From NCBI GenBank assembly GCA_021324235.1, contig JAJPJM010000118.1, forward strand, positions 1 to 37,130: 37,130 bases of DNA. Direction: 5' to 3'. Below the pieces are notes generated by a model. It ran no database searches and was not told where the DNA came from. It saw only the letters and a program-made list of their open reading frames with translations. Position numbers and translations under genes: made by a program. Position 1 is the stretch's first letter. The number at the start of each line of letters is the position of its first letter. The stretch comes from Verrucomicrobiota bacterium. GTDB lineage: Bacteria > Verrucomicrobiota > Verrucomicrobiia > Limisphaerales > UBA11358. This document shows, piece by piece, positions 11,843 to 37,130 of the stretch.

Positions 11843-11898
11843 CAGCTTGAAACCGTGGCGTGTCTTGCTTATTTAAAAACAGCCAAACCTGCCAGATT

Positions 11899-13347
11899 AT
11901 GCAACTGAGAAATGTATTTGTTCCCGCCCTGGCGGCATTGACCGCGGCGAACTTTTGCCACGCGGAGCCGTCGGCTGCGCCAGCCACGGCCACAAACCTG
12001 CCGCCGCCAATGAATTGGACCGCCGGGCAGGACCATCAAAACATGATGGAGCAACTGGGTATCAAAACGCTGCGACCCGGCGCCGACGGCATGAATCCCA
12101 AGGCGGCAAATTATCAGAACACCGACGAAGCCAGGGCCAATCCTTATCCCAACCTGCCCGACCCGCTCACGTTGAATGACGGCAAAAGGGTGACCACGCC
12201 CGAAATGTGGTGGCAGCAGCGGCGGCCGGAAATCGTCGAGGACTTTGACCGGGAAGTCTATGGCCGGGTCCCGAAAAATGCGCCCAAAGTGACCTGGGAA
12301 ATCACCAGCGTTACCCGGACCAATAATGGCGCCATTCCGGTCATCACCAAACAACTCACCGGCCACGTGGACAACTCTGCCTATCCGCTCATCAGCGTCA
12401 ACATTCAGTTGACGTTGACCACCCCCGCCAACGCGACGGGCCCGGTGCCCGTGATGCTGGAATTTGGTTTCGATTTCAGCCGTTTCCTGCGCGGGACGAA
12501 TCGATTCGGCGGAACGAACGCTTTCCGCCGCTTTCCCGGGTTTAACGGACCCAACTGGCAACAGCTGGTTTTGTCCAACGGCTGGGGTTATGCGATTATT
12601 GTTCCGACCAGTTACCAAGCCGACGACGGCGCCGGCTTGACGCGCGGCATCATTGGTTTGTGCAACCGGGGCCAGCCGCGCAAACCGGATGATTGGGGCG
12701 CGTTGCGCGCGTGGGCCTGGGGCGCGAGTCGCGCGCTGGATTATTTTGAAACCGATCCGGCGGTGGACGCAAAGCAGGTCGGCATCGAAGGCCTTTCGCG
12801 TTACGGCAAGGCGACCCTGGTTACAATGGCTTACGACCCGCGTTTCGCCATTGCGCTGGTGGGTTCCTCCGGCGAAGGCGGGGCAAAACTTTCCCGCCGC
12901 AACTGGGGCGAATTGGTGGAAAATCTGACCGGCACCGGGGAGTATCATTGGATGGCGGGCAATTTTCTCAAATACGGGGGCCCGTTGACACCCGGCGATT
13001 TACCCGTGGACGCGCATGAATTGATTGCCCTGTGTGCACCGCGACCCGTGTTCATCAGCTATGGCGCCACCTCGGGCAGCCCCGGCGCGGAAGGCACGTG
13101 GGTGGATCAACACGGTAGTTTCATGGCCACCGTCGCCGCCGAACCGGTTTACCGATTGCTGGCGAAGAAAGGATTGGAGGTTCACGGCAATTATCTCACC
13201 GCTCCGATGCCGCCGGTCAATACCGCGCTGACCAACGGCGATCTGGCCTGGCGGCAGCACGACGGCGGACACACTGACGCGCCCAATTGGCCGGCATTCC
13301 TGCAATGGGCAGACCGTTACATCCATGGTCCGCCACCCACAAAATGA
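11899..13347 (+). CDS. CE15-like 4-O-methyl-glucuronoyl esterase
   Basis: EDFDREVYGRVPKNAPKVTWE, RGQPRKPDDWGALRAWAWGASRALDYFETDP, VGIEGLSRYGKATL (nucleophile Ser elbow), GSSGEGGAKLSRRNWGE, RPVFISYGATSG. Likely start MQLRNVFVPALAAL at 11899 (ORF from 11860). Confidence 0.87.
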   Translation: MQLRNVFVPALAALTAANFCHAEPSAAPATATNLPPPMNWTAGQDHQNMMEQLGIKTLRPGADGMNPKAANYQNTDEARANPYPNLPDPLTLNDGKRVTTPEMWWQQRRPEIVEDFDREVYGRVPKNAPKVTWEITSVTRTNNGAIPVITKQLTGHVDNSAYPLISVNIQLTLTTPANATGPVPVMLEFGFDFSRFLRGTNRFGGTNAFRRFPGFNGPNWQQLVLSNGWGYAIIVPTSYQADDGAGLTRGIIGLCNRGQPRKPDDWGALRAWAWGASRALDYFETDPAVDAKQVGIEGLSRYGKATLVTMAYDPRFAIALVGSSGEGGAKLSRRNWGELVENLTGTGEYHWMAGNFLKYGGPLTPGDLPVDAHELIALCAPRPVFISYGATSGSPGAEGTWVDQHGSFMATVAAEPVYRLLAKKGLEVHGNYLTAPMPPVNTALTNGDLAWRQHDGGHTDAPNWPAFLQWADRYIHGPPPTK

Positions 13348-18825: not shown

Positions 18826-21351
18826 TTACGGCCAAGTAATGCGATAGTACGCCGCATTGGCACTGCCCACCGTGCTATCGGTGAAGCTCGTGGTCGCCCC
18901 GCCAGTCGGCAAGCCATTCGTCAGAGTGACCCACGTGGGCGTGGCCAGATTAAACGTACGTTGCACCGAGTAGGTGTTGGTCTGGAACATCGAGCCAAGC
19001 GAATTCCAATTGATGCTTACGCTTACACCATTGGTCGTGACCGAGCGAGCAACGGAGTTCAGGTTGAACAACCTGGGGATCGTTGAATCGTAACCATTCG
19101 CGCTCAAATAGAAGTCATCCAATAAGAGCATGTTGTTGGTTTCGAAGAAGGCGCCATTTGCCGCCGTCGTGATGTCTTCGTTGGCGACACCCATGAACAC
19201 CTTGTCCAAGTAGGGCGTCGGCGTATCCACGGCCGGATTGGCACCGTCATAGTCTCGATCTCCATGGAAACCCGAAAACAGGAGCGTCCGGGTGGGATCA
19301 CCCTGCTTTTGCAGCCAAACTGCATACACCGGTTCCTGAACCGTGTTGCTAGTGCCAGAGATGATTGCGATATGAGTGTTGTCATTCGAAACATCCATCC
19401 AGCAATAATAGGTCACATTGGTCTGCAAGCCATTCGCATTAACCGAAGTCACATAGGAATACGAATTGGTGACCGAAGTACCGCCGTAATCCGCAGCCTG
19501 CAAGTCAAAAGGCATGTTGGGCCCAAAGGCGCCGCTGGGATCATAGTGGACGATTCGCACGGCCGGGCCGTACGTTCCAGCACCGCCCGGAGGCGAGGTG
19601 CCACCGAGAGGGCCAGTGCTGCCAAAACCATAATCGCTCAAGCCCAATGCGAAATCCAATCCGCTGTAAAGTGGAATACTTGCATAACTTCCGGGATCGG
19701 TAAGCGAGAACCGGAAGAACAGCGTGGTTGTCTGATACGGAGGAATGGTCAGATGACCCAACTGTCCGTACGCCAGCGCGCCGGGTGAATCATGACCAAT
19801 CGAAATGCTATTATCAGTCTTGTAACCGCTCTTTGGCGACAGAACCTTGTTGCCATTCACTGTCACCACGTTAAACCGGTCCATGGTCCCCTGATAATAA
19901 CCTTGCACACCCACCCAGTCATTGCCTTGGATTCCCTGGGTGGTATTTCCAAACACGCCATCGAACCGTTGGATCAAATTCCAGTCCGACGGAACGCCAG
20001 CGAAGGTTTGAACAGTAACCGAGGCTTGCTGATCCGCCGCGATGCCATTATGGGCCACCAGCGTAAATGTGTAGCTGGCGTTGTTACCCAAGGTCACAGT
20101 TGTTGAACCAACAGAGGTCGCACTCACATCGCCTACTCCACCACTGATGACAATGCCACCGGGGGTGTTATTGGCGCCCGTTACGTTCCAATTTAGGGTG
20201 ACTGTGTGATTTTTCCCGATTTCAGCCAGGCCCGCAGTGAAGCTGCCAATTATGACGACGTTCGTATTGACTGACAGGGCGAACACTCCATTGGTGTTCA
20301 TTCCGTTGGTCATGACGAATTGTATTTCGTTGGTGTTCAGAACGCGGTTCCAGTATCCAATGTCGCTAACCTGCTCGACCAGACCGCCGGAGAAAGCGTT
20401 GTTGCGAATGAAACCACCAAAAGCGGTGTCCCCACTCTTGCACATGTTCGACATCCATCGCACAAAACCATTCGGAGGTGGATTGGACGAACCGACAAAC
20501 GGATAAATGTTGGTCGTGTAATAGGTGTTCGTCACATTTAGCGGCGGGCCGATGGCAGGGTTACCCTCATGATCGGTGTACGGGCCGCCACTTTGCAAAC
20601 CCGGATCATAATTGCCATCCACGAACACATGAAAATCGCCGTTGGTGTCAATGGTGGTTGTGAGCATGTGCCAATTGCCGTCCAGCACCGGATTGGCGAC
20701 GGAAGTATTTTGGCTGCCTTGATTATATTCATACGCCACGTTCGGAAGCTGATAAGTACCATCATCCAACTGCTGGCAGGCAACCCCGTTGGGGTCAGTC
20801 GCCTGACCTGCGGGATCGTCCCGGAAGAAATAATTTGCTTGACCATTGCCGGGTTTGCCGCTGACCGAGTAAAACGGCTGGCTGTCCCCGTTATTGGCGC
20901 ATTCCGCGAAAATTCGCAGTTCGCCGGCGATGTTAGAAGCGTTGGCCTTGACCCAGAAGTTCATAGTCGCGCCGCGCTGGTCGATGAAGGGCAGAAAATC
21001 ACCCGAACCATCCAACGGATTCTGTCCGGTGGTGCGATAGTAGATGAGCGTGGTGCCCGGGGATTGGTTGAAATTGAAGGCCAAGCCGGCCGGTTCAATG
21101 CCTGGATGGCTCGCGGCCACGATGTTGGCGGCGGTCATTCCGGACAAGGTCATATCACGCCGGTTGATATAATCGGGCGTGGCATTGGTATTGCCGGGTG
21201 CAAGCCCGTTCAGTGGGTAGTAGTCAACCAGGCCGTTGGTTATCTGCTGGAAGGTAACCTGCGCCTGACTGGTGTTTATGAAAGCGGCCAATGCCGCCAA
21301 CAGAGCTGCCAGCATAACGGCAGAGGGATGTTTTTGAGTTGGGTTTTTCAT
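18826..21351 (-). CDS. Secreted LamG/concanavalin A-like protein with Ig-like region and C-terminal tail
   Basis: Signal peptide; GLVDYYPLNGLAPG..., NFWVKANASNIAGELRIF, DGNWHMLTTTIDTNGDFHVFVDGN, DIGYWNRVLNTNEI (LamG hallmarks); C-terminal TSFTDSTVGSANAAYYRITWP. Confidence 0.8.
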   Translation of the reverse strand: MKNPTQKHPSAVMLAALLAALAAFINTSQAQVTFQQITNGLVDYYPLNGLAPGNTNATPDYINRRDMTLSGMTAANIVAASHPGIEPAGLAFNFNQSPGTTLIYYRTTGQNPLDGSGDFLPFIDQRGATMNFWVKANASNIAGELRIFAECANNGDSQPFYSVSGKPGNGQANYFFRDDPAGQATDPNGVACQQLDDGTYQLPNVAYEYNQGSQNTSVANPVLDGNWHMLTTTIDTNGDFHVFVDGNYDPGLQSGGPYTDHEGNPAIGPPLNVTNTYYTTNIYPFVGSSNPPPNGFVRWMSNMCKSGDTAFGGFIRNNAFSGGLVEQVSDIGYWNRVLNTNEIQFVMTNGMNTNGVFALSVNTNVVIIGSFTAGLAEIGKNHTVTLNWNVTGANNTPGGIVISGGVGDVSATSVGSTTVTLGNNASYTFTLVAHNGIAADQQASVTVQTFAGVPSDWNLIQRFDGVFGNTTQGIQGNDWVGVQGYYQGTMDRFNVVTVNGNKVLSPKSGYKTDNSISIGHDSPGALAYGQLGHLTIPPYQTTTLFFRFSLTDPGSYASIPLYSGLDFALGLSDYGFGSTGPLGGTSPPGGAGTYGPAVRIVHYDPSGAFGPNMPFDLQAADYGGTSVTNSYSYVTSVNANGLQTNVTYYCWMDVSNDNTHIAIISGTSNTVQEPVYAVWLQKQGDPTRTLLFSGFHGDRDYDGANPAVDTPTPYLDKVFMGVANEDITTAANGAFFETNNMLLLDDFYLSANGYDSTIPRLFNLNSVARSVTTNGVSVSINWNSLGSMFQTNTYSVQRTFNLATPTWVTLTNGLPTGGATTSFTDSTVGSANAAYYRITWP

Positions 21352-23442: not shown

Positions 23443-24513
23443 TCAGTTTGCTGTCAACAATAATAACGCGGCGCGCAGGTAGCCCAGCGCGTAGGCCATG
23501 CCCGCGTGCCACGGCGCCGCACAATTCATCTGTGGCGTGTGGTCGGGTATGATGACGCCGTTGAAATTATTCTGCTTCAAAATACGCAGCACGCGAACCG
23601 TGTCCACGTCCCCGTCATCAATAAATGTTTCGCGGTAAAACGGTGCTTTGCCCCGGACATTCCGGAGGTGCATGTAGGCCACCCTGCCCTGCCGGCTGTA
23701 GCTGTCCACCGCATGGTAAACGTCGCCTTCGTTCATCTCCGCCAGCGTGCCCACGCAAAATTCAAAGGCGTTGGCCGGGCTGGGATTCAAATCAACCACC
23801 TTCTGATAAAGCCGCGGTTGATAAACCAATCGTGGCTGGCCGCGCATCGTTGGCATCGGCGGATCGTCCGGATGCAGGGCGAGCTTTACGTTCGCTTCCT
23901 CGGCCACCGGCAATACTTCCCGGAGGAAATTTCCCAACCGCCGCCAGAGCTCATCCTGCGTAATTGGCGGCACGAAAGCTTTCGGCGCGTTGGGATCATA
24001 AACCATGTTCCAGACCATGCCGTTGGGCATCGGTTCCTCGAGCGGGCCTTCCATGCCCACCGACATGGCCGCGCCGCGCGCGTAGGGACCGGTGGTGCGT
24101 CCACAAACCCCGGCGATGCTGAAGTTGTAACCCATGATGGGAATGCCCGCCTGGCCGAGATTGCGGATGATCGTTTTTACATTTTCGATCTGCCGATTTC
24201 TTTTCGGACCGTCGAGCAGCACGTCGTGCCAGTGGGCAGGGTCGAAATTTTCGATGGCTTCGAGTTTCAATCCCTCCGCTTCAACGGCCTGGCGCAATTC
24301 GCACAATTCTTCGGCGCTCCATAATTTTTCAGGGTCGCCGGCCAGTCCCCAGCCCTGCTCCGTGCCGGTCGGCTGGTTGCCGTTGGGATTGTGCGCGCCG
24401 CCTTTGAAATAATCCACGAGGTGGGCCACGATGTGCGTGGCGCCGGCCTGCCGGGCGAATTGGAAATTTTCGCGCGTCAGCATGTGACGGTACAAGCCCA
24501 GTCCGAGTTTCAT
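23443..24513 (-). CDS. uxuA: Mannonate dehydratase
   Basis: MKLGLGLYRHMLTRENFQFARQAGATHIVAHLVDYF, MGYNFSIAGVCGRT, ANVKLALHPDDPPMPTMRG, FCVGTLAEMNEGDVYHAV, FIDDGDVDTVRVLRIL, IIPDHTPQM. Confidence 0.9.
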   Translation of the reverse strand: MKLGLGLYRHMLTRENFQFARQAGATHIVAHLVDYFKGGAHNPNGNQPTGTEQGWGLAGDPEKLWSAEELCELRQAVEAEGLKLEAIENFDPAHWHDVLLDGPKRNRQIENVKTIIRNLGQAGIPIMGYNFSIAGVCGRTTGPYARGAAMSVGMEGPLEEPMPNGMVWNMVYDPNAPKAFVPPITQDELWRRLGNFLREVLPVAEEANVKLALHPDDPPMPTMRGQPRLVYQPRLYQKVVDLNPSPANAFEFCVGTLAEMNEGDVYHAVDSYSRQGRVAYMHLRNVRGKAPFYRETFIDDGDVDTVRVLRILKQNNFNGVIIPDHTPQMNCAAPWHAGMAYALGYLRAALLLLTAN

Positions 24514-24837: not shown

Positions 24838-27819
24838 ATGAATTTTCAAATGACCACCCATTCTCAATTGAACCGGTCAACGTGCAAAATCTCCTGGCTG
24901 CTGGGTTTTTGCCTACTGGCTTTTGTCCGTCAAAGTTTCGCCCTCGTCGAACCGCAATATGTGGAGAACATCGCCGACCCCGGCGATTTCTGCGTGGTGC
25001 AAGGAAACGTAACGGCCCCGGTTTACGTGGATCCCAATGACTACGCGGGGGTGATCATCGCGGCCGACAATCTTTGTGCGGATGTTCGTCGGGTGACCGG
25101 TCTAACGCCGGCGATGGTTCATACCGAAGCGGCATTGGGAACCAACGCAATCATCATCGGCACCCTCGGTAAGAGCCGGATCATTGATCGGTTGATCCAG
25201 GCCGGGAAAATCGATGTCTCATCCATCACGGACAAGTGGGAATCGTATTTCACCCAGGTCGTGCCGGATCCCCTGCCGGGGGTCGCCAGCGGCCTCGTGA
25301 TTGTCGGCAGTGACCGGCGCGGGACGATTTACGGCATTTATGATTTGTCCGCGGAGATGGGGGTATCGCCTTGGCACTGGTGGGCAGACGTGCCGGTGCC
25401 GCACCAGGACACGATTTTTGTCAAGGCCGGGAAATACGAACAGGGACCGCCCGCCGTCAAATATCGCGGCATTTTTCTGAATGATGAAGCGCCGGATTTG
25501 ACGCGTTGGATTCAGGAAAAATTCGGCAGCGCGCCCGGATACAGCGGCGCGGCCAATTACGGCCCGGCCTTTTACACCAATTTGTTTGAAGTGATGCTGC
25601 GTTTAAAGGCCAACTACCTCTGGCCGGCGATGTGGAACAACGCGTTCAACGAAGATGACACCAACAATCCGCGGCTGGCCGACGAATATGGAATTGTGAT
25701 GGGCACGTCGCACCAGGAGCCGATGATGCGCGCGCAAAAAGAATGGGACCGGAAATATTCAAGGGAATATGGCAGTTGGAATTACGCCCGCATTCCCAAC
25801 GTGGTCTCGAATTTCTGGCGCGAAGGCATTGAGCGTAATAAAAATTACGAAAATCTCATCACCATCGGCTTGCGGGGCGCGAACGACACACCGATGGCCG
25901 AAGGCGGCCCGGAAGCGAACATGGTGTTGCTCGAAAAAATCGTGGACGACCAGCGAAAAATCATTGCCGATGTGGTCAATCCCGACGTCGCTCAAGTGCC
26001 GCAGGTGTGGTGTCTCTACAAGGAAGTGATGGATTATTACAACGCCGGAATGCGCGTGCCCGACGACGTAACGCTGTTGTGGGCGGAAGATAATTGGGGC
26101 AACGTCCGCCGTCTGCCGACCGCCGAGGAACGCAAGCGCGGCGGCGGCGCGGGAGTTTATTATCATTTTGATTATCACGGCGGACCACGGAGTTATCAAT
26201 GGATCAACGCCAATCCCATTCCCAAAATCTGGGATCAACTGTCGCTGGCCAAACAATACGGCGCGGACCGGGTTTGGATTGTCAACGTCGGCCATTTCAA
26301 AGGCTACGAATTTCCGACGGAATACTTTTTGAGCCTCGCCTGGAATTCCGGCCGCTGGACCAATGACAACCTGGATGAATTTACCCGATTGTGGGCCGCG
26401 CGCCAATTCGGGCCGGAATACGCGAACGACATCGCCGACATCATTTCCAAATACACAAAATACAATGGACGGCGAAAACCGGAATTGCTGGATGCGACGA
26501 CTTACAGCCTGGTGAATTATCAGGAATTCGAAAAGGTCGTGAAGGATTACGACGCGGTCGCCGCGCAAGCGCAGGACATCTCCGACCGACTGCCGGAATC
26601 GGAACGCGCCGCCTTTTATGAACTGGTTTTGTTTCCCGCCAAAGCCTCCGCGCAACTGAATGAAATGTATCTGGCGGCGGCGAAGAACGAATTATACGCG
26701 AGCCAGGGTCGCGCGAGCGCGAATGACTTCGCCGAGCAAACGCGGTCGCTGTTCGCCGCCGAAACCAACCTGATGGATTATTTCAACCACGATTTTCTGG
26801 ATGGCAAATGGGATCATTTCATGGATCAAACGGTCATCGGCTACACCAGTTGGAACGATCCGCCGCGCAACAGTCTGCACGCGGTCAGGCTGAGGAACAT
26901 TGAGGTGCCGGACGCGGCGGCGATGGGCGTGGCGGTGGAAGGTTCGAGCGCGGCGTTCACCAACGGGGAAACCACCCTGCCGCCCTTCGACGCCTTTAAT
27001 CGGCAACAACATTACATTGACGTGTTCAACCAGGGCAAAGCGAGTTTTAACTTCACGGCCACCCCGGGCGAGCCGTGGATTTCCGTGAGCGAAACGGGCG
27101 GGACAATTGAAAAAGACAAACGGCTGTGGGTGAGCATCGATTGGGACAAAGCGCCGAAAAATGCGGCGAGTGGAACCGTAAACATTTCCGGCGCGGGCGG
27201 TGAGGTTGCCGTCAAGGTCAATGCCTTTAATCCGACGGAAATCACCCGAAATACGCTTAATGGTTTTGTTGAAGGCGAAGGCGTTGTGGCCATCGAGCCG
27301 GAACATTACACCCGGCGGACCGAAGCCGGAAAAAACCGCTGGATTAAAATTGAAGATTACGGACGCACGCTTTCGGGAATGCGCGCCACGGGCCCGGTGG
27401 ACGCACCCGGCGCCATCCCGCAGAAAGATTCGCCCTCGCTGGAATATACGATGTATTTGTTCAGCACGGGAGCGGTGGACGTGGTCACGGTTACCTCGCC
27501 CATTTTAAATTTCGCGCCCGACCGCGGAGTACGGTTCGCGGTTTCCCTTGATGATGATGCCCCGCAAACCGTCACGCTGGTTCCCAAGAATTACAACGCC
27601 GGCAACGGAAACCGTGACTGGGAAAATTCCGTCCGGGACAATGCGCGCTTTGCCCATGCCGACTTTACGATTGGAAAGCCGGGTTACCACACGCTGAAAT
27701 TCTGGATGGTGGATCCGGGCGTCGTGCTGCAGAAAATCATCGTGGACTGCGGCGGTCTGAAGCCGAGCTATCTCGGGCCGCCGGAAAGTTATCATAATAC
27801 GGTTTCGCCAACCCAATGA
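24838..27819 (+). CDS. GH115-family alpha-glucuronidase (secreted)
   Basis: GIYDLSAEMGVSPWHWWADVPVP, VKYRGIFLNDEAPDLTRWIQEKFG, LRLKANYLWPAMWNNAFNEDDTNNPRLADEYGIVMGTSHQEPMMRAQKEW, RVWIVNVGHFKGYEFPTEYFLSLAWN; N-terminal hydrophobic signal. Confidence 0.92.
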   Translation: MNFQMTTHSQLNRSTCKISWLLGFCLLAFVRQSFALVEPQYVENIADPGDFCVVQGNVTAPVYVDPNDYAGVIIAADNLCADVRRVTGLTPAMVHTEAALGTNAIIIGTLGKSRIIDRLIQAGKIDVSSITDKWESYFTQVVPDPLPGVASGLVIVGSDRRGTIYGIYDLSAEMGVSPWHWWADVPVPHQDTIFVKAGKYEQGPPAVKYRGIFLNDEAPDLTRWIQEKFGSAPGYSGAANYGPAFYTNLFEVMLRLKANYLWPAMWNNAFNEDDTNNPRLADEYGIVMGTSHQEPMMRAQKEWDRKYSREYGSWNYARIPNVVSNFWREGIERNKNYENLITIGLRGANDTPMAEGGPEANMVLLEKIVDDQRKIIADVVNPDVAQVPQVWCLYKEVMDYYNAGMRVPDDVTLLWAEDNWGNVRRLPTAEERKRGGGAGVYYHFDYHGGPRSYQWINANPIPKIWDQLSLAKQYGADRVWIVNVGHFKGYEFPTEYFLSLAWNSGRWTNDNLDEFTRLWAARQFGPEYANDIADIISKYTKYNGRRKPELLDATTYSLVNYQEFEKVVKDYDAVAAQAQDISDRLPESERAAFYELVLFPAKASAQLNEMYLAAAKNELYASQGRASANDFAEQTRSLFAAETNLMDYFNHDFLDGKWDHFMDQTVIGYTSWNDPPRNSLHAVRLRNIEVPDAAAMGVAVEGSSAAFTNGETTLPPFDAFNRQQHYIDVFNQGKASFNFTATPGEPWISVSETGGTIEKDKRLWVSIDWDKAPKNAASGTVNISGAGGEVAVKVNAFNPTEITRNTLNGFVEGEGVVAIEPEHYTRRTEAGKNRWIKIEDYGRTLSGMRATGPVDAPGAIPQKDSPSLEYTMYLFSTGAVDVVTVTSPILNFAPDRGVRFAVSLDDDAPQTVTLVPKNYNAGNGNRDWENSVRDNARFAHADFTIGKPGYHTLKFWMVDPGVVLQKIIVDCGGLKPSYLGPPESYHNTVSPTQ

Positions 27820-29102
27820 CCATGAACCAGCCGGTTACGCTTGCCGCGGCCCTCGCCTTGTCGCTTTCCCTGACGGCCTGTCGCAGCCTTGATTCAAAGA
27901 CCGCCAGCAACAGCTCCGGCGCTTTTGCCACCGGCCATTACCGCAACCTGTTTGCCGAAGACGGTCATCCGCCGGAACAGGTTAAGGCAAAAGTTGATGC
28001 CGGCTTCCAACAGTTGTTCCACGGCGACCCGGACACGCAGGCGGTTTATTTTCCCGCCGGAACGAACGCCAACGGCCCGCTGGCTTTTGTGGAAGACATC
28101 GCCAACCATGACGTGCGTTCTGAAGGCATGTCCTACGGCATGATGATAGCCGTGCAGTTAAACCGGAAAGCCGAATTTGACGCCATTTGGAACTGGGCCA
28201 TGACCCACATGTACCACGATTCGACCAACAGTCCGGCCTATGGTTATTTCTCGTGGTCCGTCAAAAGCAATGGAACGCCAAATGACGAAATGCCTGCGCC
28301 GGATGGCGAACAATATTTTGCGATGTCGCTTTATTTCGCTTCCGGTCGCTGGGGAAACGGCCCGGGCATCTACCATTATCGGGCCGCGGCCGACCGCTTG
28401 CTGGACGATATGAAAAACCGCGCACTCCTCACCGGCGCGACCATCACGGGAGTAAAAACCGTCGGCGCCTTGTTTGATCCAAATTCCAGAATGGCGCGCT
28501 TTACTCCCGACACCAACAGCTGGAATCACACCGATCCTTCTTATCAATTGCCCGGATTTTACGAATTATGGGCGCTTTGGGGTCCCCAACAAGACCGGGA
28601 ATTCTGGTCCCAGGCAGCGTCGGCGAGCCGGGAATTTTTTCAGCTCGCCGCAAATCCGGTCACCGGGTTGACGCCGGATTACGCCAATTTCGACGGCACA
28701 CCCTGGGCGGCGCCATGGAAAGCCAGCAGCACCAATTTCGAATATGACTCATGGCGCAGCGCGATGAACTGGTCGGTGGACTGGGCGTGGTGGGCCAGGG
28801 ACGACCGGGAAAGACAACGGAGCGATCGTCTCCAAGCGTTTTTCGATTCCCGAGGGATGGACGCCTACGGCGACCTGTATACCGTGGACGGCAGACCATT
28901 GGGCAACGATCATTCGGCAGGATTAGTGGCCATGAACGCGGTGGCCAGTCTCGCGGCCACGAATTCCCGCGCCAAACCATTTGTGGAAGCCTTGTGGAAC
29001 ACGCCGGTCCCGTCCGGCTCATGGCGTTACTACGATGGCATGTTGTACCTGCTGGGAATGCTTCATGACAGCGGCGCGTTCCGCATCTGGGCGCCAAAGT
29101 AG
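27816..29102 (+). CDS. GH8-family glycosidase (probable reducing-end xylose-releasing exo-oligoxylanase), predicted lipoprotein
   Basis: VRSEGMSYGMMIAVQLNRKAEFDAIWNWAMTHM, YGYFSWSVKSNGTPNDEMPAPDGEQYFAMSLYFASGRWG, DPSYQLPGFYELWALWG; lipobox-like LSLTAC; ATGA overlap with the GH115 stop codon. Confidence 0.85.
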   Translation: MTMNQPVTLAAALALSLSLTACRSLDSKTASNSSGAFATGHYRNLFAEDGHPPEQVKAKVDAGFQQLFHGDPDTQAVYFPAGTNANGPLAFVEDIANHDVRSEGMSYGMMIAVQLNRKAEFDAIWNWAMTHMYHDSTNSPAYGYFSWSVKSNGTPNDEMPAPDGEQYFAMSLYFASGRWGNGPGIYHYRAAADRLLDDMKNRALLTGATITGVKTVGALFDPNSRMARFTPDTNSWNHTDPSYQLPGFYELWALWGPQQDREFWSQAASASREFFQLAANPVTGLTPDYANFDGTPWAAPWKASSTNFEYDSWRSAMNWSVDWAWWARDDRERQRSDRLQAFFDSRGMDAYGDLYTVDGRPLGNDHSAGLVAMNAVASLAATNSRAKPFVEALWNTPVPSGSWRYYDGMLYLLGMLHDSGAFRIWAPK

Positions 29103-29326: not shown

Positions 29327-31174
29327 ATGTCCAAAGAAAGAGATTCCTTTGTTTCTGCGAAGTTGGCAAAAATGAGCCTGCTGGAAAAATGCGGCCAACT
29401 TCTCACTTTTACCTGGCGCGGGGCCATTCCGACGCCTTCCGGCATCGAACAGATCACCAAACTGCACGCCGGCGGCCTTTGCCTGGAACCCTATGCGCTG
29501 GAGACCTGCAAGAACCTGTATTGGGGCCGTTCCCAGGTGGATCCCAACTTCAAAAAGCCGAAAGACTATTTCGATATCGCGCACACCTACTTCGATGATC
29601 ATAACTACGGTGTGAGCGTGACGCCGGAAGAGTTGACGGTCGCGCTCAATAAAATGCAGGAAATCGCCCTGAACCGGCCCTCCGGCATCCCTCTGCACGT
29701 GACGATTGACATGGAAGGTGATTTCAAGAACGACTACAGTGCCGGCCACGTCCTGCAATTCCCGCCGCCCATGGGCATGACCGCCATTGGCGACCTCGAG
29801 ATCGCGTACAAAGTCGCGAACCTCTGCGCGAAGCAGTGCGCCGCCATGGGCGTCACCCAGTTCTATCACCCCGTCTGCGACGTCAATATCAACCCGCTCA
29901 ATCCTGAAATCGGCGTGCGCTCCTTCGGAGACGATCCGAAGGTTTGCGCGAAGTTCGTGGCAGCGACCATTAAGGGTTATCAGGATGCGAACGTGGTCGC
30001 CACGATCAAGCACTTCGCCGGCCGCGGCGATTCGTCCACCGACGCACACGACACGCTGGACGTCTGCCGCGGCGACCTGAAGCGGATGCGCGAAGTCGAA
30101 TTGGTTACCTTTCAGGCGGGCGTTGATGCCGGGGCCAAGGCACTGATGACGGCCCATACCATCTACCCGGCGTTCGACAAGGAATATCCGGCGACGCTGT
30201 CGAAGAAGATTCTCACGGACCTGCTCCGCGGCGAGATGGGCTTCAAGGGTGTGATCGTTTCGGACGCGATCGGCATGGCCGCGATTCTGAAGAAGTGGCC
30301 ACTGCCGCTGGCGTGCGCCATGGCGGTCAAGGCCGGTGTCGATACGATCCTGCTCAAGGCCGACGACGAATCACGCGCCCAGTGCCTGTTCGGCATCAAG
30401 AGCGCTGTCGAACGCGGCGAGCTTTCCGAAGAGCGCGTCAATGACGCGGTCCGCCGGTTGTTGTGCATGAAGTACGACCAGGGCCTGTTCGAAAAGGCGG
30501 GCAAAATGGATCCGAAGAAGACCGCGGCCGTCGTCAGGGACCAGAAGAACATTGATTTCTCCGTGGAAGTGGCGCAGAAGGCGTTGCTGGTCGTACGCGA
30601 CGACAAGAAGCTGTTGCCGCTCAAGAAGGACAAGAAGCTTTTGGTGATTGAGCAGCTCATTCCCTATCCGTTCCTGGGAAAGGATCTGTACAGCCATCCG
30701 CACATGTTCTGCGAACAGATGACCAAGTACTCCATCAACCTGATCCTGGACGACACCGGCTTTCATGCCAGCGACGAGGATGTGGCAGAAGCGTTGAAGC
30801 TGGCCAAAGAGGTGGACATGGTCGTCATAACGAACTATTACGCCCGCATTGAGAAACGCGGCAACAATCAGCACCTGGTGAAGGCATTGAAAGATGCCGG
30901 ACACACGGTGGTGGTCGTAACCAACTTCCCGTATCGCAAGGGCACAACCACGGAGGCCGATGCTGTCATCTGCAACTTCTCAGGCTCGCCCGATTCAATC
31001 CGTGCCGCCGCAGATCTGCTGTGGGGCGCCATCAAGCCTTGCCAGACGACGAAGATGCCGATTGATCTGAGCGCCGAAAAGAACCTTCCGGACCAGGCGC
31101 CGGCAGCGGCTCCGAAGGCCCCCGCGAAACCAGCAGGCAAGAAGAAAGCCTTTGCGTACGGAGGCAAGTGCTAG
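29327..31174 (+). CDS. GH3-family N-terminal domain glycosidase, no signal peptide
   Basis: MSLLEKCGQLLTFTWRG, HVTIDMEGDF, VATIKHFAGRGDSSTDAHDTLDV, GFKGVIVSDAIGMAAI, AVKAGVDTILL; Lys/Ala/Pro-rich C-terminal tail. Confidence 0.85.
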   Translation: MSKERDSFVSAKLAKMSLLEKCGQLLTFTWRGAIPTPSGIEQITKLHAGGLCLEPYALETCKNLYWGRSQVDPNFKKPKDYFDIAHTYFDDHNYGVSVTPEELTVALNKMQEIALNRPSGIPLHVTIDMEGDFKNDYSAGHVLQFPPPMGMTAIGDLEIAYKVANLCAKQCAAMGVTQFYHPVCDVNINPLNPEIGVRSFGDDPKVCAKFVAATIKGYQDANVVATIKHFAGRGDSSTDAHDTLDVCRGDLKRMREVELVTFQAGVDAGAKALMTAHTIYPAFDKEYPATLSKKILTDLLRGEMGFKGVIVSDAIGMAAILKKWPLPLACAMAVKAGVDTILLKADDESRAQCLFGIKSAVERGELSEERVNDAVRRLLCMKYDQGLFEKAGKMDPKKTAAVVRDQKNIDFSVEVAQKALLVVRDDKKLLPLKKDKKLLVIEQLIPYPFLGKDLYSHPHMFCEQMTKYSINLILDDTGFHASDEDVAEALKLAKEVDMVVITNYYARIEKRGNNQHLVKALKDAGHTVVVVTNFPYRKGTTTEADAVICNFSGSPDSIRAAADLLWGAIKPCQTTKMPIDLSAEKNLPDQAPAAAPKAPAKPAGKKKAFAYGGKC

Positions 31175-31210
31175 GCCAGGCAATTTGACTGGGCAACTGA
31201 TAGGGGAAAA

Positions 31211-33763
31211 ATGCCGAAACCCGCTGCATTTGACATCCGTGATATTTACACCATCACGGGAACCGAGGTGGCCACCATCTATGAAAAGAACAAGATGGCG
31301 GTCCACTTTCAGGGGATGTCCAAAACCCTGCAGTTTCCACAAACCGTGGCATTGCAAGGAGCGCCGACGTGCTCCATCGGCATTTCCCCCCATGGTCTCT
31401 ACAACCGGCTGAACGACGCGGGCCGGCTCATCATGCTGAACCAAAAGACGGTCCAGTTTGGTTCGGCGCCCTTCGTGCGCATTGGCGACAAGCTCACGAT
31501 GCTTACGCAGGCAAAGCCGGGAGCCTCCGAGCTTCCCGAGGACGTCCCGGCAATCAAGAATTACTATCCTCCCGCGATTGACGAAAAGAACGTCTCCCTC
31601 ACCATCGCCACGCCCTCGATGGAGATGGCTTTCAAAATTGGAAAAGTGACGGTTACCCGCCGGCTCATATCACCGCTGCTTTCGGGCAATGAGCAGACGC
31701 TGATGCCGATTGGCGTTGAAGAGTTTGAAGTCCAAAATGCCTCGAACCAATCCCAGACCATCACCCTGGTCGTTCCCAAGCCATCCCTGGTCAATCTCCA
31801 GGAAAAGGAACTCAAACCAACCGACCAGGACAGCGTCTATATTTCCTCCGCGCCCGTCCATGGCCACGTGCATGAGGCGTTCGAGTCCAACGGCGTTCGC
31901 GGCATCGTCATGGGCAGCACCGAAAGCCCCAACCGGATGGTGCTGGCCGTTGCGGAAACGCCCGGAGTGGCGATTGACGTTCAGCCTTATTTCTGCCTGA
32001 ACCGGCTCGTCCAGGATTTGCTGCTCAACGGCGATGGCAGCTTCTTTGAAAAACGGAAGCCCATTCTCCGCAGCGATTACGGTTCGGCCATCAGCCTCAC
32101 CTTCACCGTCAAAGCCAAAGCAACCCGGAAAATCGCCATTGCGGTGGCGCTGGACTTTCCCGAGCAGGTTTATATCGACGGCACAAAGTTCGAACGGAAG
32201 TACGTTCGGAATTTCAAGGATGCCGGGTCGCGGGCGATGGATCTGGCCAGGCTCGCTCTGGACAGCTATCCGCAGTGGTGGGAAAAAACCGTTGCGATTC
32301 AAAAGCGAATCTTTGATTCGATTCAGGCCAGCGCCTCCTATAAAGGCGACCGGGCCGGCGCCCTGCGCCTGACCCGGCTGATTCTGAACGAACTCCATTT
32401 CCCGCTTTCCAACGCCATCGTCTGGGTCGAGGACGAAAAGAACGGCGAGCGCGCCCGGTTTCTGGAATGTTTCGACTACGCCTACATTGATCCCTCGGAC
32501 GTGGATTGGTATTCCATGGTGCTGTTGATGCTCTTCCCGCGAGTGGAAAAGGACCTGTGCCAGGGTTTCGTGGATTCGATTTTGGCCGAGGACCCGACGC
32601 CCCGTTTTTACCACCAACACGCGTCGTTCATCGAAGCCAGAAAGCACTACCTGGAACACCCCGAGGAATACGAAGGCGTCTCGATGACGCAAATCCGCGA
32701 TGCCTTCAAGACCAAGGGCAGCGTCGCCCACGACCTGGGCGCCATGCCCAAGGGCCATCCCCTGCGCAACGTGAGTGATTACGCCTGGTACAACAACAAC
32801 TATTGGGTGGACCTGTTCCCCAAGTTGATGATGCGGGTGTTGCGCAACGTGAAATTCACGGGTGATATTGATTTCCTCAGGCAGAATTGGAAAACGCTCA
32901 AATTCGGCCTGGAGTCCCTGCTTCAGCTCGATTTCGATGACGACGGCCTGCCCGAAGGCTATCCCGATGAGGTGAAAAACACCTTCGACAATCTGGTCCT
33001 CTTTGGCGCTGATGCCTATGACGCCACGCAATTCCTCGGCGGCTGCCAGGCCATGATCAAAATGGCGCAAATGCTCAAGGACAAAGAGGGCGAAGCGCAC
33101 ATCAAAAAAGTTTTCAACAAGGGCTGGAACAGTTTCGAGCAGCTGTGGCGGGATGGGAAGAATCAGCGCGGCGAGAAGCTTCAATACTACGTTACCTGTT
33201 ACGATCCCAAGACCGGAAACAAGAACACCGATGTCTGGACCAACCAGCTCGATGCCTTGTGGTATCTGATCTCCATCGGCGAAGAGCCTTTCATTCCCGA
33301 GGACCGCGCCAGGCAGATCCTGAAGACCATCTATCGGAACAACCGTTCCTTCATGGGCTGGGCCATGTGCAAAACTGAGAATGGCAAACCGGTCGAATCA
33401 GACCAGGGGAAGGACGTCTATACGACTTCCAACTATGTCCTGGCCCAGTTGCTCGATTACTATGGCATGGTCAAGGAAAGCAAGGACGTTTACCAGCACA
33501 TGGACCGGGTCGTCTTTGATTACGGCAATTCGATGATCACCGCCGACAACCTCCGGGCTGAATTGGAGAAGGAAATGGGAGAATCGAAACCCGGACCTCA
33601 TTACATCGTCGCCGCCTATCCCCGGCCCGGGGCCGTCTGGACTCATCTGGTCATGAACCACGTCAAGGACCTGCAGGCCAAAACCAAATCCGGGACCATC
33701 GAGTCGAAGGATTTGATGCCGTTCTTCCCGGGGTTGCTGAGCGGCCCGGAAAAAGCGAAATAA
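31211..33763 (+). CDS. GH116-like (GBA2/DUF608-type) protein, no signal peptide
   Basis: FLECFDYAYIDPSDVDWYSMVLLMLFPRVEKDLCQGFVDSI, GSVAHDLGAMPKGHPLRNVSDYAWYNNNYWVDLFPKLMMRVLRNVKFTGDIDFLRQNW, LLQLDFDDDGLPEGYPDEVKNTFDNLVLFGADAYDATQFLGGCQAM. Confidence 0.7.
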   Translation: MPKPAAFDIRDIYTITGTEVATIYEKNKMAVHFQGMSKTLQFPQTVALQGAPTCSIGISPHGLYNRLNDAGRLIMLNQKTVQFGSAPFVRIGDKLTMLTQAKPGASELPEDVPAIKNYYPPAIDEKNVSLTIATPSMEMAFKIGKVTVTRRLISPLLSGNEQTLMPIGVEEFEVQNASNQSQTITLVVPKPSLVNLQEKELKPTDQDSVYISSAPVHGHVHEAFESNGVRGIVMGSTESPNRMVLAVAETPGVAIDVQPYFCLNRLVQDLLLNGDGSFFEKRKPILRSDYGSAISLTFTVKAKATRKIAIAVALDFPEQVYIDGTKFERKYVRNFKDAGSRAMDLARLALDSYPQWWEKTVAIQKRIFDSIQASASYKGDRAGALRLTRLILNELHFPLSNAIVWVEDEKNGERARFLECFDYAYIDPSDVDWYSMVLLMLFPRVEKDLCQGFVDSILAEDPTPRFYHQHASFIEARKHYLEHPEEYEGVSMTQIRDAFKTKGSVAHDLGAMPKGHPLRNVSDYAWYNNNYWVDLFPKLMMRVLRNVKFTGDIDFLRQNWKTLKFGLESLLQLDFDDDGLPEGYPDEVKNTFDNLVLFGADAYDATQFLGGCQAMIKMAQMLKDKEGEAHIKKVFNKGWNSFEQLWRDGKNQRGEKLQYYVTCYDPKTGNKNTDVWTNQLDALWYLISIGEEPFIPEDRARQILKTIYRNNRSFMGWAMCKTENGKPVESDQGKDVYTTSNYVLAQLLDYYGMVKESKDVYQHMDRVVFDYGNSMITADNLRAELEKEMGESKPGPHYIVAAYPRPGAVWTHLVMNHVKDLQAKTKSGTIESKDLMPFFPGLLSGPEKAK

Positions 33764-33800
33764 CAGCGCAACCATCGGCACGTTTCAGGCAACCATCAAC

Positions 33801-34694
33801 ATGTCCAAGCATTACGATATCACGTTCGTCGGCCACATGTGCTATGACGAGATCATTCCCTTTGGGGGAAAGCCTCACATTGCTCCGGGAAGCGCGGTCT
33901 TGTGCGGCGCCATGGTCGCCGGCCGCATCGGAAAGAAAGTGGCCGCCGTGGTAAAGATGGCTAAAAAAGACGAAAATATCCTGCAGGCCATGAAGGATGT
34001 CGGTGTGGATACCTACCTCATTCCGAGTGCGGAGACAACCTTCTCGAGGGTTTTACACGAGTCCGCAAACGTCGATGAGCGCAAATTGACCCTGGTCAAA
34101 TCCGCCGGTCTTATTTCAATAAACGATGTCCCCGCCCTCAACTCGAAATGCGTTCACCTGGCCGGGATTTCGGACACCGAATTCGACATGGCGCTCATGC
34201 AGGGCCTGAAATCCAGGGGCTACAGCCTTTCGACCGATATGCAGAGCTTTGTCCGCCACGTGACGCCCGTGACGCACGACATTGAGTTTAGTGATGTCGC
34301 CAACAAAAAGGAAATCGCGGCCATGATGGACAAGCTCAAGCTGGACGTCGTGGAAGCCCGCATCCTGACCGGCACTGAAGATCTGGAAAAGGCCGGCGTT
34401 ATCGTTGAATCGTGGGGTTGCCCTGAAATCCTGATTACGCATTCCCAGGGCGTCTTGGCACGGGTAAAAGGCAGGACGTACTACGAGAAATTTTCCAACA
34501 GCAACGTTTCGGGCCGGACCGGCCGCGGCGACACAACCTTTGCCGCGTACCTTTCGTGGCGGTTGAATCATGACGTGGCGGAATCCCTGAGATTCGCCGC
34601 GGCACTGGTTTCCATAAAAATGGAAACGCCGGGACCCTTCAAGGGAACGCTCGAAGACGTCGCCCGGCGTTTAAAGGAAAAGCATTCCTCGTAG
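33801..34694 (+). CDS. PfkB/ribokinase-family carbohydrate kinase
   Basis: N-terminal DITFVGHMCYDEIIPFGGKPHIAPGSAVLCGAMVAGRIGKKVAAVVKM and C-terminal signature GRTGRGDTTFAAYL. Confidence 0.85.
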   Translation: MSKHYDITFVGHMCYDEIIPFGGKPHIAPGSAVLCGAMVAGRIGKKVAAVVKMAKKDENILQAMKDVGVDTYLIPSAETTFSRVLHESANVDERKLTLVKSAGLISINDVPALNSKCVHLAGISDTEFDMALMQGLKSRGYSLSTDMQSFVRHVTPVTHDIEFSDVANKKEIAAMMDKLKLDVVEARILTGTEDLEKAGVIVESWGCPEILITHSQGVLARVKGRTYYEKFSNSNVSGRTGRGDTTFAAYLSWRLNHDVAESLRFAAALVSIKMETPGPFKGTLEDVARRLKEKHSS

Positions 34695-34875: not shown

Positions 34876-35038
34876 GGCCTTGTCCTTGCTTGTGGCTTTC
34901 AGTAGAAAGCGCACCCAATAAGAGCCGTGAACCAGATTAATAAGCATTTTTTCGATGCCTTGAGCCGCGCTGGCGAGGGCGAAGGAGGACGGCTTCCGCT
35001 CTGGTACTGAACGATTGATGGATGGGGTTGCGGCGAAT

Positions 35039-37130
35039 ATGAATCAAAAACTAGAGTCTTTTACCGGTAATATCAGTTTCAACGCCCAGCATTCGCCGAT
35101 GGGTGCTTTCATGAGCTTCACCTGCGGCAACTTCGGCACGCGAGGGGGCGTTGGACTACAGATCGGCCAGCCAGGCAATCAGGATATTTACATCGGCGTC
35201 AAAGACGGCGACCGCAAAAGCGACGCCGTGCCACGATGCCTGCCGTTTTATCAAGGCAACGCGCGCGATGCGGTCAGTGCCTTTCTCGTCGAAGCCGGAC
35301 CGGAACAGCAAAATATCAAGGAAAAGGTGCAGGCGTTCCGCGCGGAACAGATCAAGCGCTTCTATGGTTGGGGCACCGATCGGTGGCAGACGGACGAACT
35401 GGGGTTCAGCATCTACACGCCTTTCGGCGCCATTCCCGATCCCCAGACCACGACACCGCGGCACATGCGCGACGCACTGCTGCCGGCGATCACGGCGCGG
35501 CTGACGCTGGACAACCGTCAAGGCAAGGGCACCAAGACGGCGTTTTTTGCGCTGCATTTTCACGACCCCGGCGCACGGCCGCTGGATCTGGGATCCAACT
35601 CGCGACTCCGCCTCGCGTTCGCCTACCGGCGGGACTTTGGGGTCGCCGCGGAATTGCGCGAATCCGGCAGCGAAGCGGTTCCCGCGGAGAAACCATTTCT
35701 CTTCCAGCAGTGGACGGTGGACGGTGGTTTGCGCGACATCAATCCGGTTCACATGCTGGGAAGCGCCGTCGGCATCGGGTTTGAAGTTCCGGCGGGGAAA
35801 GCATACGAGCTGGTCATCGCCATCGGCACCTATCTGGATCACATTGTGACGACGGGCCTGGAGGGAAAGTACCTTTACGTGCATCATTTCGGCAGTCTTG
35901 GCGAGGTGTTGTCCAAGGCACTGGAACGCGCCGATGAACTGCGCGCCACCGCCGAAGCGCGCGACGGGGAGTTGCTCGCCTCCGGACTCACCGCGGACCA
36001 ACAGTTCCTCATCGCACATTCGACCCGCAGCTACTACGGCAGCACGCAATTGCTCGAGGTTGGCGGGGAGCCATTCTTCATCGTCAACGAAGGCGAATAC
36101 TGCATGATGAACACGCTGGACCTGAGCATCGACCACGTGTTCTGGGAGTTGAAGCAAAACCCCTGGGTGGTGAGGAACCTGCTCGACAATTTCGTCCGCC
36201 ATTTCAGCTACATCGATGAAGTGAAGCGCGAGCGGGGCAACGATTCGCGCCGTTCACCGGGAGGAATCAGTTTCGCCCACGACATGGGCGTCCACAACAA
36301 TTTCTCGCCCCCCGGTACCAGCAGTTATGAATTGAAAAACCTGACCGGCTGTTTCAGCTATATGACGGCCGAGCAACTGTGCAACTGGAGCCTGCTGGCC
36401 GCAACTTACGTGCTGAAAAGCGGGGACCTGCCCTGGGCGCGGCTGAATCAGCATGTGCTGGCCGCCTGCGTGAGCAGTCTCGTGAACCGCGGCGGCGAAA
36501 CTGGCTACGTCCACTATGACTCATCCCGCTGTGAAAAAGGCGCCGAGATCACCACCTATGATTCGCTGGACAACTCCCTGGCCCAGACACGAAACAACGT
36601 TTACATGGCCGTCAAATGCTGGGCCAGTTATCTCGGCCTGGCCCTGGTGCTTGAAAAGCTCCAGGTTCCCAGCGCCAAAACCGCCCGGGATGAAATGAGG
36701 CGGATTGAGCAGGATCTGCAGCGACGCCCGAACGGCGAGGGCGTCTTCCCCGCCGTCTTTGAAGAGGACAACCCCGGCTATGTCTCGCGCATTCTGCCTG
36801 CGTGCGAGGGTCTTGTTTATCCACTCGTGTGGGGCGTACGTGATGAGCCCTCGGCCTTGTATGAGGTGCTTAAGAAGCACACGCAGGCGCTGCTGCTGGA
36901 CCCACAGCGGCGGAACCTGTTCCCCGACGGCGGCATCAAGCTCTCTTCCACTTCGAATAATTCCTGGATGAGCAAAATTTGCATCGTGATGCACGTGGCG
37001 CGGCGTGTGTCCGGGCTGGATCAGGACGAGCAAGTCAGGCAGATCTTCACAGCCGCCGATGCGGCCCATGTCAAATGGCAGACCGATGGCAGCAGTTACT
37101 GGGCCTGCTGCGACCAAATCGTCAGCGGCA
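35039..37130 (+). CDS. GH52 beta-xylosidase, 3' truncated by window end
   Basis: Frame open to window end. NISFNAQHSPMGAFMSFTCGNFG, VNEGEYCMMNTLDLSIDHVFWELKQNPWVVRNLLDNFVRHFSYIDEV, GGISFAHDMGVHNNFSPPGTSSYEL, GAEITTYDSLDNSLAQTRNNVYMAVKCWASYLGL, LFPDGGIKLSSTSNNSWMSKI. Alternative in-frame ATG at 35018. Confidence 0.9.
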   Translation, partial: MNQKLESFTGNISFNAQHSPMGAFMSFTCGNFGTRGGVGLQIGQPGNQDIYIGVKDGDRKSDAVPRCLPFYQGNARDAVSAFLVEAGPEQQNIKEKVQAFRAEQIKRFYGWGTDRWQTDELGFSIYTPFGAIPDPQTTTPRHMRDALLPAITARLTLDNRQGKGTKTAFFALHFHDPGARPLDLGSNSRLRLAFAYRRDFGVAAELRESGSEAVPAEKPFLFQQWTVDGGLRDINPVHMLGSAVGIGFEVPAGKAYELVIAIGTYLDHIVTTGLEGKYLYVHHFGSLGEVLSKALERADELRATAEARDGELLASGLTADQQFLIAHSTRSYYGSTQLLEVGGEPFFIVNEGEYCMMNTLDLSIDHVFWELKQNPWVVRNLLDNFVRHFSYIDEVKRERGNDSRRSPGGISFAHDMGVHNNFSPPGTSSYELKNLTGCFSYMTAEQLCNWSLLAATYVLKSGDLPWARLNQHVLAACVSSLVNRGGETGYVHYDSSRCEKGAEITTYDSLDNSLAQTRNNVYMAVKCWASYLGLALVLEKLQVPSAKTARDEMRRIEQDLQRRPNGEGVFPAVFEEDNPGYVSRILPACEGLVYPLVWGVRDEPSALYEVLKKHTQALLLDPQRRNLFPDGGIKLSSTSNNSWMSKICIVMHVARRVSGLDQDEQVRQIFTAADAAHVKWQTDGSSYWACCDQIVSG

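Follow-up and report, generated by a model that had tools for sequence, protein, structure and literature searches.

A conserved GH3–GH116–PfkB gene triad with exchangeable kinase types in a glucuronoxylan locus of a Verrucomicrobiota bacterium

Described gene sets for the intracellular use of xylo-oligosaccharides combine GH10, GH43 or GH52 glycosidases with the XylA–XylB pair and a transporter. Few kinases depend on pyrophosphate, and most predicted members of the ribokinase family have no assigned physiological acceptor. One of these kinases is the myo-inositol kinase TM0415 of Thermotoga maritima (PDB 5ysp, 7e4l), whose phosphate donor is pyrophosphate and not ATP; a set of five residues has been put forward, with partial validation, as the signature of this donor, and the criteria for the TM0415 group are K171, F221, R229, R232 and M266 together with an RXGRGD motif (PMC5931981). 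The Km of TM0415 for inositol is 12 mM, and when relatives of the kinase considered here were tried on 14 acceptors including D-xylose, myo-inositol alone worked (PMC5931981). In GH116, residue roles have been assigned in the β-glucosidase TxGH116 (PDB 5bvu), in which Arg786 binds the exocyclic hydroxyl (PMC11375437). According to a review, no GH116 enzyme is known to be active on natural xylo-oligosaccharides, and SSO1353, also of GH116, is not known to cut them (PMC6887791). The preliminary description of the present locus did not recognise its combination of GH3, GH116 and PfkB-family kinase genes as a described system, and no description of such a combination was found in the open-licence literature, while mention elsewhere is possible.

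The three-gene run and its surroundings

The window, i.e., the whole stretch of 37,130 nucleotides that was analysed, belongs to a Verrucomicrobiota draft genome of 3.09 Mb in 185 contigs. Three genes on the + strand encode a GH3 glycosidase (29327–31174; 615 aa; Pfam GH3 N 242.6 bits, and GH3 C 31.7 bits, barely above the cut-off of 31), a GH116 glycosidase (31211–33763; 850 aa) and a PfkB/ribokinase-family kinase of the TM0415 group (33801–34694; 297 aa; Pfam PfkB 41.3 bits; RTGRGD motif). Their common direction and exact coordinates agreed with the preliminary description, the gaps measuring 36 and 37 bp. The second gene, previously called GH116-like, is GH116 proper, as both its catalytic domain (161.4 bits, cut-off 26.3) and its N-terminal domain (62.8 bits, cut-off 30.2) passed the Pfam thresholds. 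The run does not end at 34694, as had been assumed, but is followed by a GH52 gene (β-xylosidase family; + strand; 443 bits), which begins at about 35015–35039 and extends to 37130, where the contig end cuts it; this gene is likely a member of the same run. A scan of the window for promoters and terminators gave no signal clearly above that of shuffled sequence.

Upstream, a 224-bp gap separates the GH3 gene from a GH8 gene (27816–29102, +) with a lipoprotein-like N-terminus, which is preceded by Pfam-assigned genes for a GH115 α-glucuronidase (24838–27819, +) and the mannonate dehydratase UxuA of glucuronate catabolism (23443–24513, −). GH30-like and SASA esterase genes and a glucuronoyl esterase-like (CE15) gene (11860–13347, +) complete an upstream gene set that identifies the setting of the triad as a glucuronoxylan locus. 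A UxuA homolog (78%) also adjoins the cassette in another locus (L065). An 841-aa protein without Pfam match (18826–21351) is flanked on one side by the GH30-like genes and on the other by a protein whose N-terminus carries a prepilin-type motif. Contamination of the contig was considered and deemed unlikely, because its RibBA is 85% identical to that of a same-genus genome and its GH115 up to 73%.

The N-termini of the triad proteins are not hydrophobic. The maximum Kyte–Doolittle 13-mer within the first 40 residues, a hydropathy proxy (not SignalP) with a threshold of 2.0, was 1.05 for GH3, 0.78 for GH116 and 1.79 for the kinase. Across the loci described below, none of 55 GH3, 54 GH116 and 24 kinase sequences reached this threshold, in contrast to 11 of 14 GH115 and 10 of 11 GH67 sequences. 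By this proxy, the earlier proposal that the triad lacks signal peptides and is cytoplasmic was supported, and both glycosidases are predicted to be cytosolic.

Recurrence of the triad and its two kinase types

In the host's own lineage, relatives of the cassette were scarce. The window kinase had no match in the rest of 145 genomes of the phylum except one weak partial match, none in the rest of 146 genomes of the order except one 33% homolog, and none in four same-genus genomes of the order sample; likewise, GH3 of the cassette clade was not found in the 12 same-genus genomes searched. The absence of both the GH3 clade and the kinase from same-genus genomes indicates that the cassette is accessory. 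No match to the cassette was found in 72,556 plasmids. Taken alone, the scans of the phylum, order and genus had suggested non-conservation, which a wider GH116 scan overturned.

This wider scan, in which one genome per species was searched with a two-sequence GH116 alignment, yielded 59 loci, all from metagenome-assembled genomes. The GH116 sequences were 59%–85% identical in 58 loci, the exception being one distant relative (L080). The loci derived from Acidobacteriota, Bacteroidota, Verrucomicrobiota, Chloroflexota, Ignavibacteriota, Calditrichota, Spirochaetota, Planctomycetota, KSB1, WOR-3, Neomarinimicrobiota, Ratteibacteria and one Brockarchaeota archaeon, so that the cassette spans more than 10 phyla, one archaeon included. 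A locus was regarded as full when the whole GH116 gene was present with at least 3.3 kb upstream and at least 1 kb downstream, as in 36 of the 59. All 36 contained a nearby GH3 gene on the same strand as GH116 and exactly one PfkB-superfamily kinase gene. The kinase was of the window type and located downstream of GH116 in 19 loci, and in the other 17 it was a different PfkB-family kinase (ca. 405 aa) encoded upstream of GH3; no full locus had both types and none had neither. The GH3–GH116–PfkB arrangement recurs more than by chance, and the triad is conserved while its kinase types are exchanged. Conserved co-occurrence of the three orthologs, on which the preliminary description had made its proposal depend, was found in every locus that could be fully seen. 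The loci outside the full set are contig fragments, except L062, in which GH116 has no adjacent GH3, and L078, in which GH116 is truncated N-terminally; L080 is the distant relative. In L080 (1–4680), from an Elusimicrobia genome, a single open frame of 1560 aa joins a GH94 phosphorylase domain to a GH116 (38%) that follows it. In L053 (11530–13260), GH116 is followed by another GH3 closely similar to that of the cassette (about 72% to the window copy).

Since the 59-locus scan was conditioned on GH116, an independent genome profile was made in one order holding the ATP-type kinase (161 genomes; centre G314). GH116 and this kinase occurred together in 10 genomes and were both lacking in 149, whereas the kinase alone and GH116 alone were found once each, both at contig ends (Fisher p = 5e-14). 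One genome (G364) has the kinase–GH3 pair and GH116 on separate contigs, and in another (G350) about 5 kb separate GH3 from GH116. As these two genomes keep all parts although unlinked, a joint function beyond shared transfer is indicated.

In both the GH116 and GH3 trees, the window kinase type was confined to one well supported clade, which also contained one Spirochaetales locus with an ATP-type kinase. Two changes of kinase type were needed on the trees, compared with 16–17 changes of phylum label (17 on the GH116 tree, 57 rows), the latter implying movement of the cassette between phyla. On these trees, the cassette appears as laterally mobile across phyla, and one kinase type has replaced the other, with a change in gene position as well. 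Judging from the nesting in a midpoint-rooted tree, the replacement likely proceeded from ATP to pyrophosphate.

Catalytic residues and predicted specificities

All PDB sequence matches of the window kinase were TM0415 entries, and a Foldseek search with its structure model (mean pLDDT 74; last quarter weak) returned TM0415 and its mutant as the top seven. The five signature residues correspond to K180, F231, R239, R242 and M274 and are invariant in 16 orthologs, which also keep, as does the window kinase, the GRTGRGD sequence (RXGRGD motif) and the DXXE magnesium site. The window kinase thus combines the five residues and the motif that define the pyrophosphate-dependent ribokinase family, and its phosphate donor is probably pyrophosphate instead of ATP. 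The acceptor residues D16, Q148 and R152, equivalent to Asp11, Gln141 and Arg145 of TM0415 / MI3K, are likewise invariant. In the window kinase orthologs, position 78 of TM0415 corresponds to V84, position 89 to residue 96 (L or M) and position 116 to I123. The V84/L96/I123 set of the window more closely resembles L77/L87/V112 of the ATP-dependent inositol 3-kinase and the TM0415 N78L/S89L mutant, which according to its PDB title was turned into a myo-inositol-3 kinase. Because the acceptor Asp, Gln and Arg are kept but the pocket residues differ, the acceptor is expected to be a six-membered ring, though not necessarily inositol. Kinase type showed no difference with respect to proton-pumping pyrophosphatase, which was found in 37 of 41 cassette genomes.

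The alternative kinase matched Pfam PfkB and carries the motif GALGSGD, in which the second residue is small. By a published rule, a small residue at this position denotes a nucleotide donor (PMC5931981), so the alternative kinase is predicted from its motif to be ATP-type, in a PfkB subfamily different from that of the window kinase. No NCBIfam model scored above its cut-off against it (best: IolC, 71 of 300 bits), and its AlphaFold model was poor in the N-terminal part (mean pLDDT 67). Relatives outside the cassette (about 40%) directly adjoin GH38 α-mannosidases in three of the inspected loci (L121, L122 and L125). The partners of this kinase family thus include further glycosidases, which suggests that it generally serves sugars freed by such enzymes. 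A protein of ca. 320 aa recurs in L121, L125, L130 and L132, the L121 copy being without Pfam match.

The window GH3 belongs to the His/Asp-dyad (NagZ-type) lineage, with the motif KHFAGRGDSSTDAH and the nucleophile Asp in VSDAIGM; K228, H229, D239, H241 and D313 are invariant in 19 orthologs. Its top PDB matches were the GH3 β-N-acetylglucosaminidase 6k5j and YbbD, and its PDB relatives also include the β-glucoside phosphorylase 5vqd. No NCBIfam GH3 equivalog model reached its cut-off against this protein, that for β-N-acetylhexosaminidase scoring 122.9 against 207 bits. Identity was 63%–84% within its own cross-phylum clade, whereas the remaining GH3 proteins of the genus shared only about 30% with it.

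In GH116, the nucleophile E419 and acid/base D593 are invariant and align with E441 and D593 of TxGH116, and the catalytic residues of both cassette glycosidases are intact. H507, D430, T591 and R805 are also invariant, the equivalents of His507, Asp452 and Thr591 of TxGH116 being kept and R805 taking the place of Arg792 by motif. E791 may be the counterpart of TxGH116 Glu777, which together with Arg786 serves the exocyclic hydroxyl at subsite −1. By motif alignment, other GH116 proteins have an Arg after the HY motif where the cassette clade has an invariant Ile-Val (I799–V800). The replaced Arg appears to correspond to TxGH116 Arg786, the HMMER alignments to TxGH116 ending before this stretch. 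An Ile-Val in place of this Arg, as read from the motif alignment, would fit a sugar without CH2OH, e.g., xylose, and we infer a β-xyloside specificity for the cassette GH116.

Proposed pathway, alternatives and known systems

Xylan markers were found beside the cassette in 31 of the 36 full loci and were absent from the stretch seen in the other five. Neighbours included a GPH-family symporter (26 loci), GH10 (24), GH115 (11) and GH67 (9). Unlike GH67 and GH115, GH10 neighbours often fell under the hydropathy threshold (18 of 30), and such signal-less enzymes fit a cytosolic digestion of imported oligosaccharides; together with the frequent symporter, they also fit the imported glycoside of the preliminary description. 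In one locus (L028, 14762–22299), genes for GH67, an MtaA/CmuA-like methyltransferase of the UroD family, XylB, XylA and a DUF5981-MTHFR protein adjoin the cassette, and UroD-like genes also occur in L037 and L056. No enzyme is known to us that demethylates 4-O-methylglucuronic acid, and the L028 neighbours could represent a route for this step.

A cytosolic pathway can be outlined on this basis. Xylanases and α-glucuronidases would cut xylan outside the cell to oligosaccharides, which would enter via the GPH-family symporter and, in many loci, be trimmed further by a signal-less GH10. GH116 and GH3 would then cut β-linkages in the cytosol, and the PfkB-superfamily kinase would trap a pyranose-like product of this cleavage for catabolism by phosphorylating it. 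In the window lineage, the phosphate would come from inorganic pyrophosphate via the TM0415-type kinase; in sister lineages, an ATP-type kinase of the other PfkB subfamily, encoded upstream of GH3, would occupy the same slot. Taken as one claim, the full pathway, in which the triad forms the centre of a laterally mobile, cytosolic cassette that breaks down imported oligosaccharides from xylan, is slightly favoured in our judgement. Points counted against it are that this GH3 lineage is known mostly for N-acetylglucosaminidases, that GH116 enzymes have no proven activity on xylo-oligosaccharides (PMC6887791), that most cassette genomes already possess XylA and XylB-family genes, which makes the need for a further xylose kinase less obvious, that published relatives of the window kinase accepted myo-inositol but not D-xylose (PMC5931981), and that five full loci showed no xylan marker. 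More tentatively, and with less than even confidence, the cassette may constitute a phosphorylating route for a xylan-derived pyranose, other than XylA–XylB, that is driven by pyrophosphate or ATP depending on the branch and has spread laterally over more than 10 phyla and one archaeal lineage.

Several other explanations accommodate part of these data. GH3 and GH116 might free xylose for the xylose isomerase pathway, with the kinase supplying its last step as a non-orthologous xylulokinase; 4 of 36 loci include XylA, 8 of the 41 cassette genomes have no XylA match at all, and in a Spirochaetales locus (L034, 12734–14395) an FGGY kinase weakly similar to XylB stands directly behind GH116 besides the ATP-type PfkB kinase. 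However, the window kinase has the PfkB/ribokinase fold (Pfam, Foldseek) and not the FGGY fold of XylB, its TM0415-type acceptor site keeps the six-membered-ring binders D16, Q148 and R152, and two loci (L028 and L042) have XylB alongside the cassette kinase. XylB-family matches were found in all 41 cassette genomes and XylA in 33 (24 above the curated cut-off), often side by side, and since most cassette genomes already have XylA–XylB, the cassette kinase is unlikely to be only a xylulokinase. An amino-sugar cassette, in which a NagZ-type GH3 frees GlcNAc for an amino-sugar kinase and the xylan neighbours are incidental, would suit the best PDB matches of GH3 (β-N-acetylglucosaminidases), its intact His/Asp dyad motif and the occurrence of N-acetylglucosaminidases within GH116. 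This seems quite unlikely given that 31 of 36 loci, from different phyla, carry xylan markers and that chitinase and muropeptide families were not found among the recurring neighbours.

The acceptor could also be a cyclitol, either myo-inositol or a different one, that GH3 and GH116 release from a glycosyl-inositol, as the nearest known enzyme is TM0415, an inositol 1-kinase whose acceptor residues are kept as D16, Q148 and R152, V84 and L96 sit where N78L/S89L made TM0415 an inositol 3-kinase, and the weak top NCBIfam match of the ATP-type kinase is IolC. Yet no recurring inositol dehydrogenase or iol genes were seen in the loci, where xylan genes recur, and TM0415 itself has an inositol Km of 12 mM (PMC5931981), which leaves inositol an improbable acceptor. 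Phosphorylation might instead come first, with the kinase acting on the imported oligosaccharide and GH3 and GH116 cleaving phospho-oligosaccharides; the same gene content would be expected, as genomics does not fix the order of steps. To our knowledge, however, neither GH3 nor GH116 is known as a phospho-glycosidase family, and a monosaccharide acceptor is the simpler assumption where relatives of the ATP-type kinase pair with GH38, making this order very unlikely. A chance or hitch-hiking neighbourhood with no joint function would agree with the lack of the clade GH3 in 12 same-genus genomes, which makes the cassette accessory, but is hardly credible given exactly one kinase in 36 of 36 loci, the exchange of types at a different position and the retention of the parts when unlinked.

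Should the cassette indeed serve imported xylan-derived oligosaccharides, uncultivated bacteria of peat, sediment and springs would digest glucuronoxylan, a major plant polymer, with an additional step in the cytosol, and GH116 may gain its first role on natural xylan fragments. The catabolic context of more than 20 window-kinase orthologs is fixed, an ATP-type kinase matches them at this step in other loci, and the paired kinase types offer a natural experiment on why cells pay with pyrophosphate.

Compared with known systems, the general kind, cytosolic oligosaccharide catabolism, is familiar, while the interchange of pyrophosphate and ATP kinases is unusual. The window kinase is 31%–32% identical to TM0415 over the full length and has its RXGRGD motif, the acceptor-site Asp, Gln and Arg and the complete set of five pyrophosphate residues, but differs in the pocket (V84/L96/I123 instead of N78/S89/L116) and in being encoded in xylan cassettes with GH3 and GH116 and not in an inositol operon. 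The GH3 has the dyad loop, nucleophile and two-domain layout of NagZ/YbbD-type enzymes (PDB 6k5j, 3bmx), whereas its loop has GRG for GHG, DMEGD replaces DQEGG and its context is xylan. Similarity of the GH116 to TxGH116 is only distant, despite the same two-domain organisation, nucleophile and acid/base and the presence of the H507, D452, T591 and (by motif) R792 equivalents, and Arg786 is apparently swapped for the invariant Ile-Val in the cassette clade. With intracellular xylo-oligosaccharide gene sets, the cassette has in common a transporter, cytosolic glycosidases, a kinase and xylan markers; in contrast to them, it always combines GH3 and GH116 with a PfkB-family kinase, for which two types can stand in for each other, and most of its host genomes possess XylA–XylB as well.
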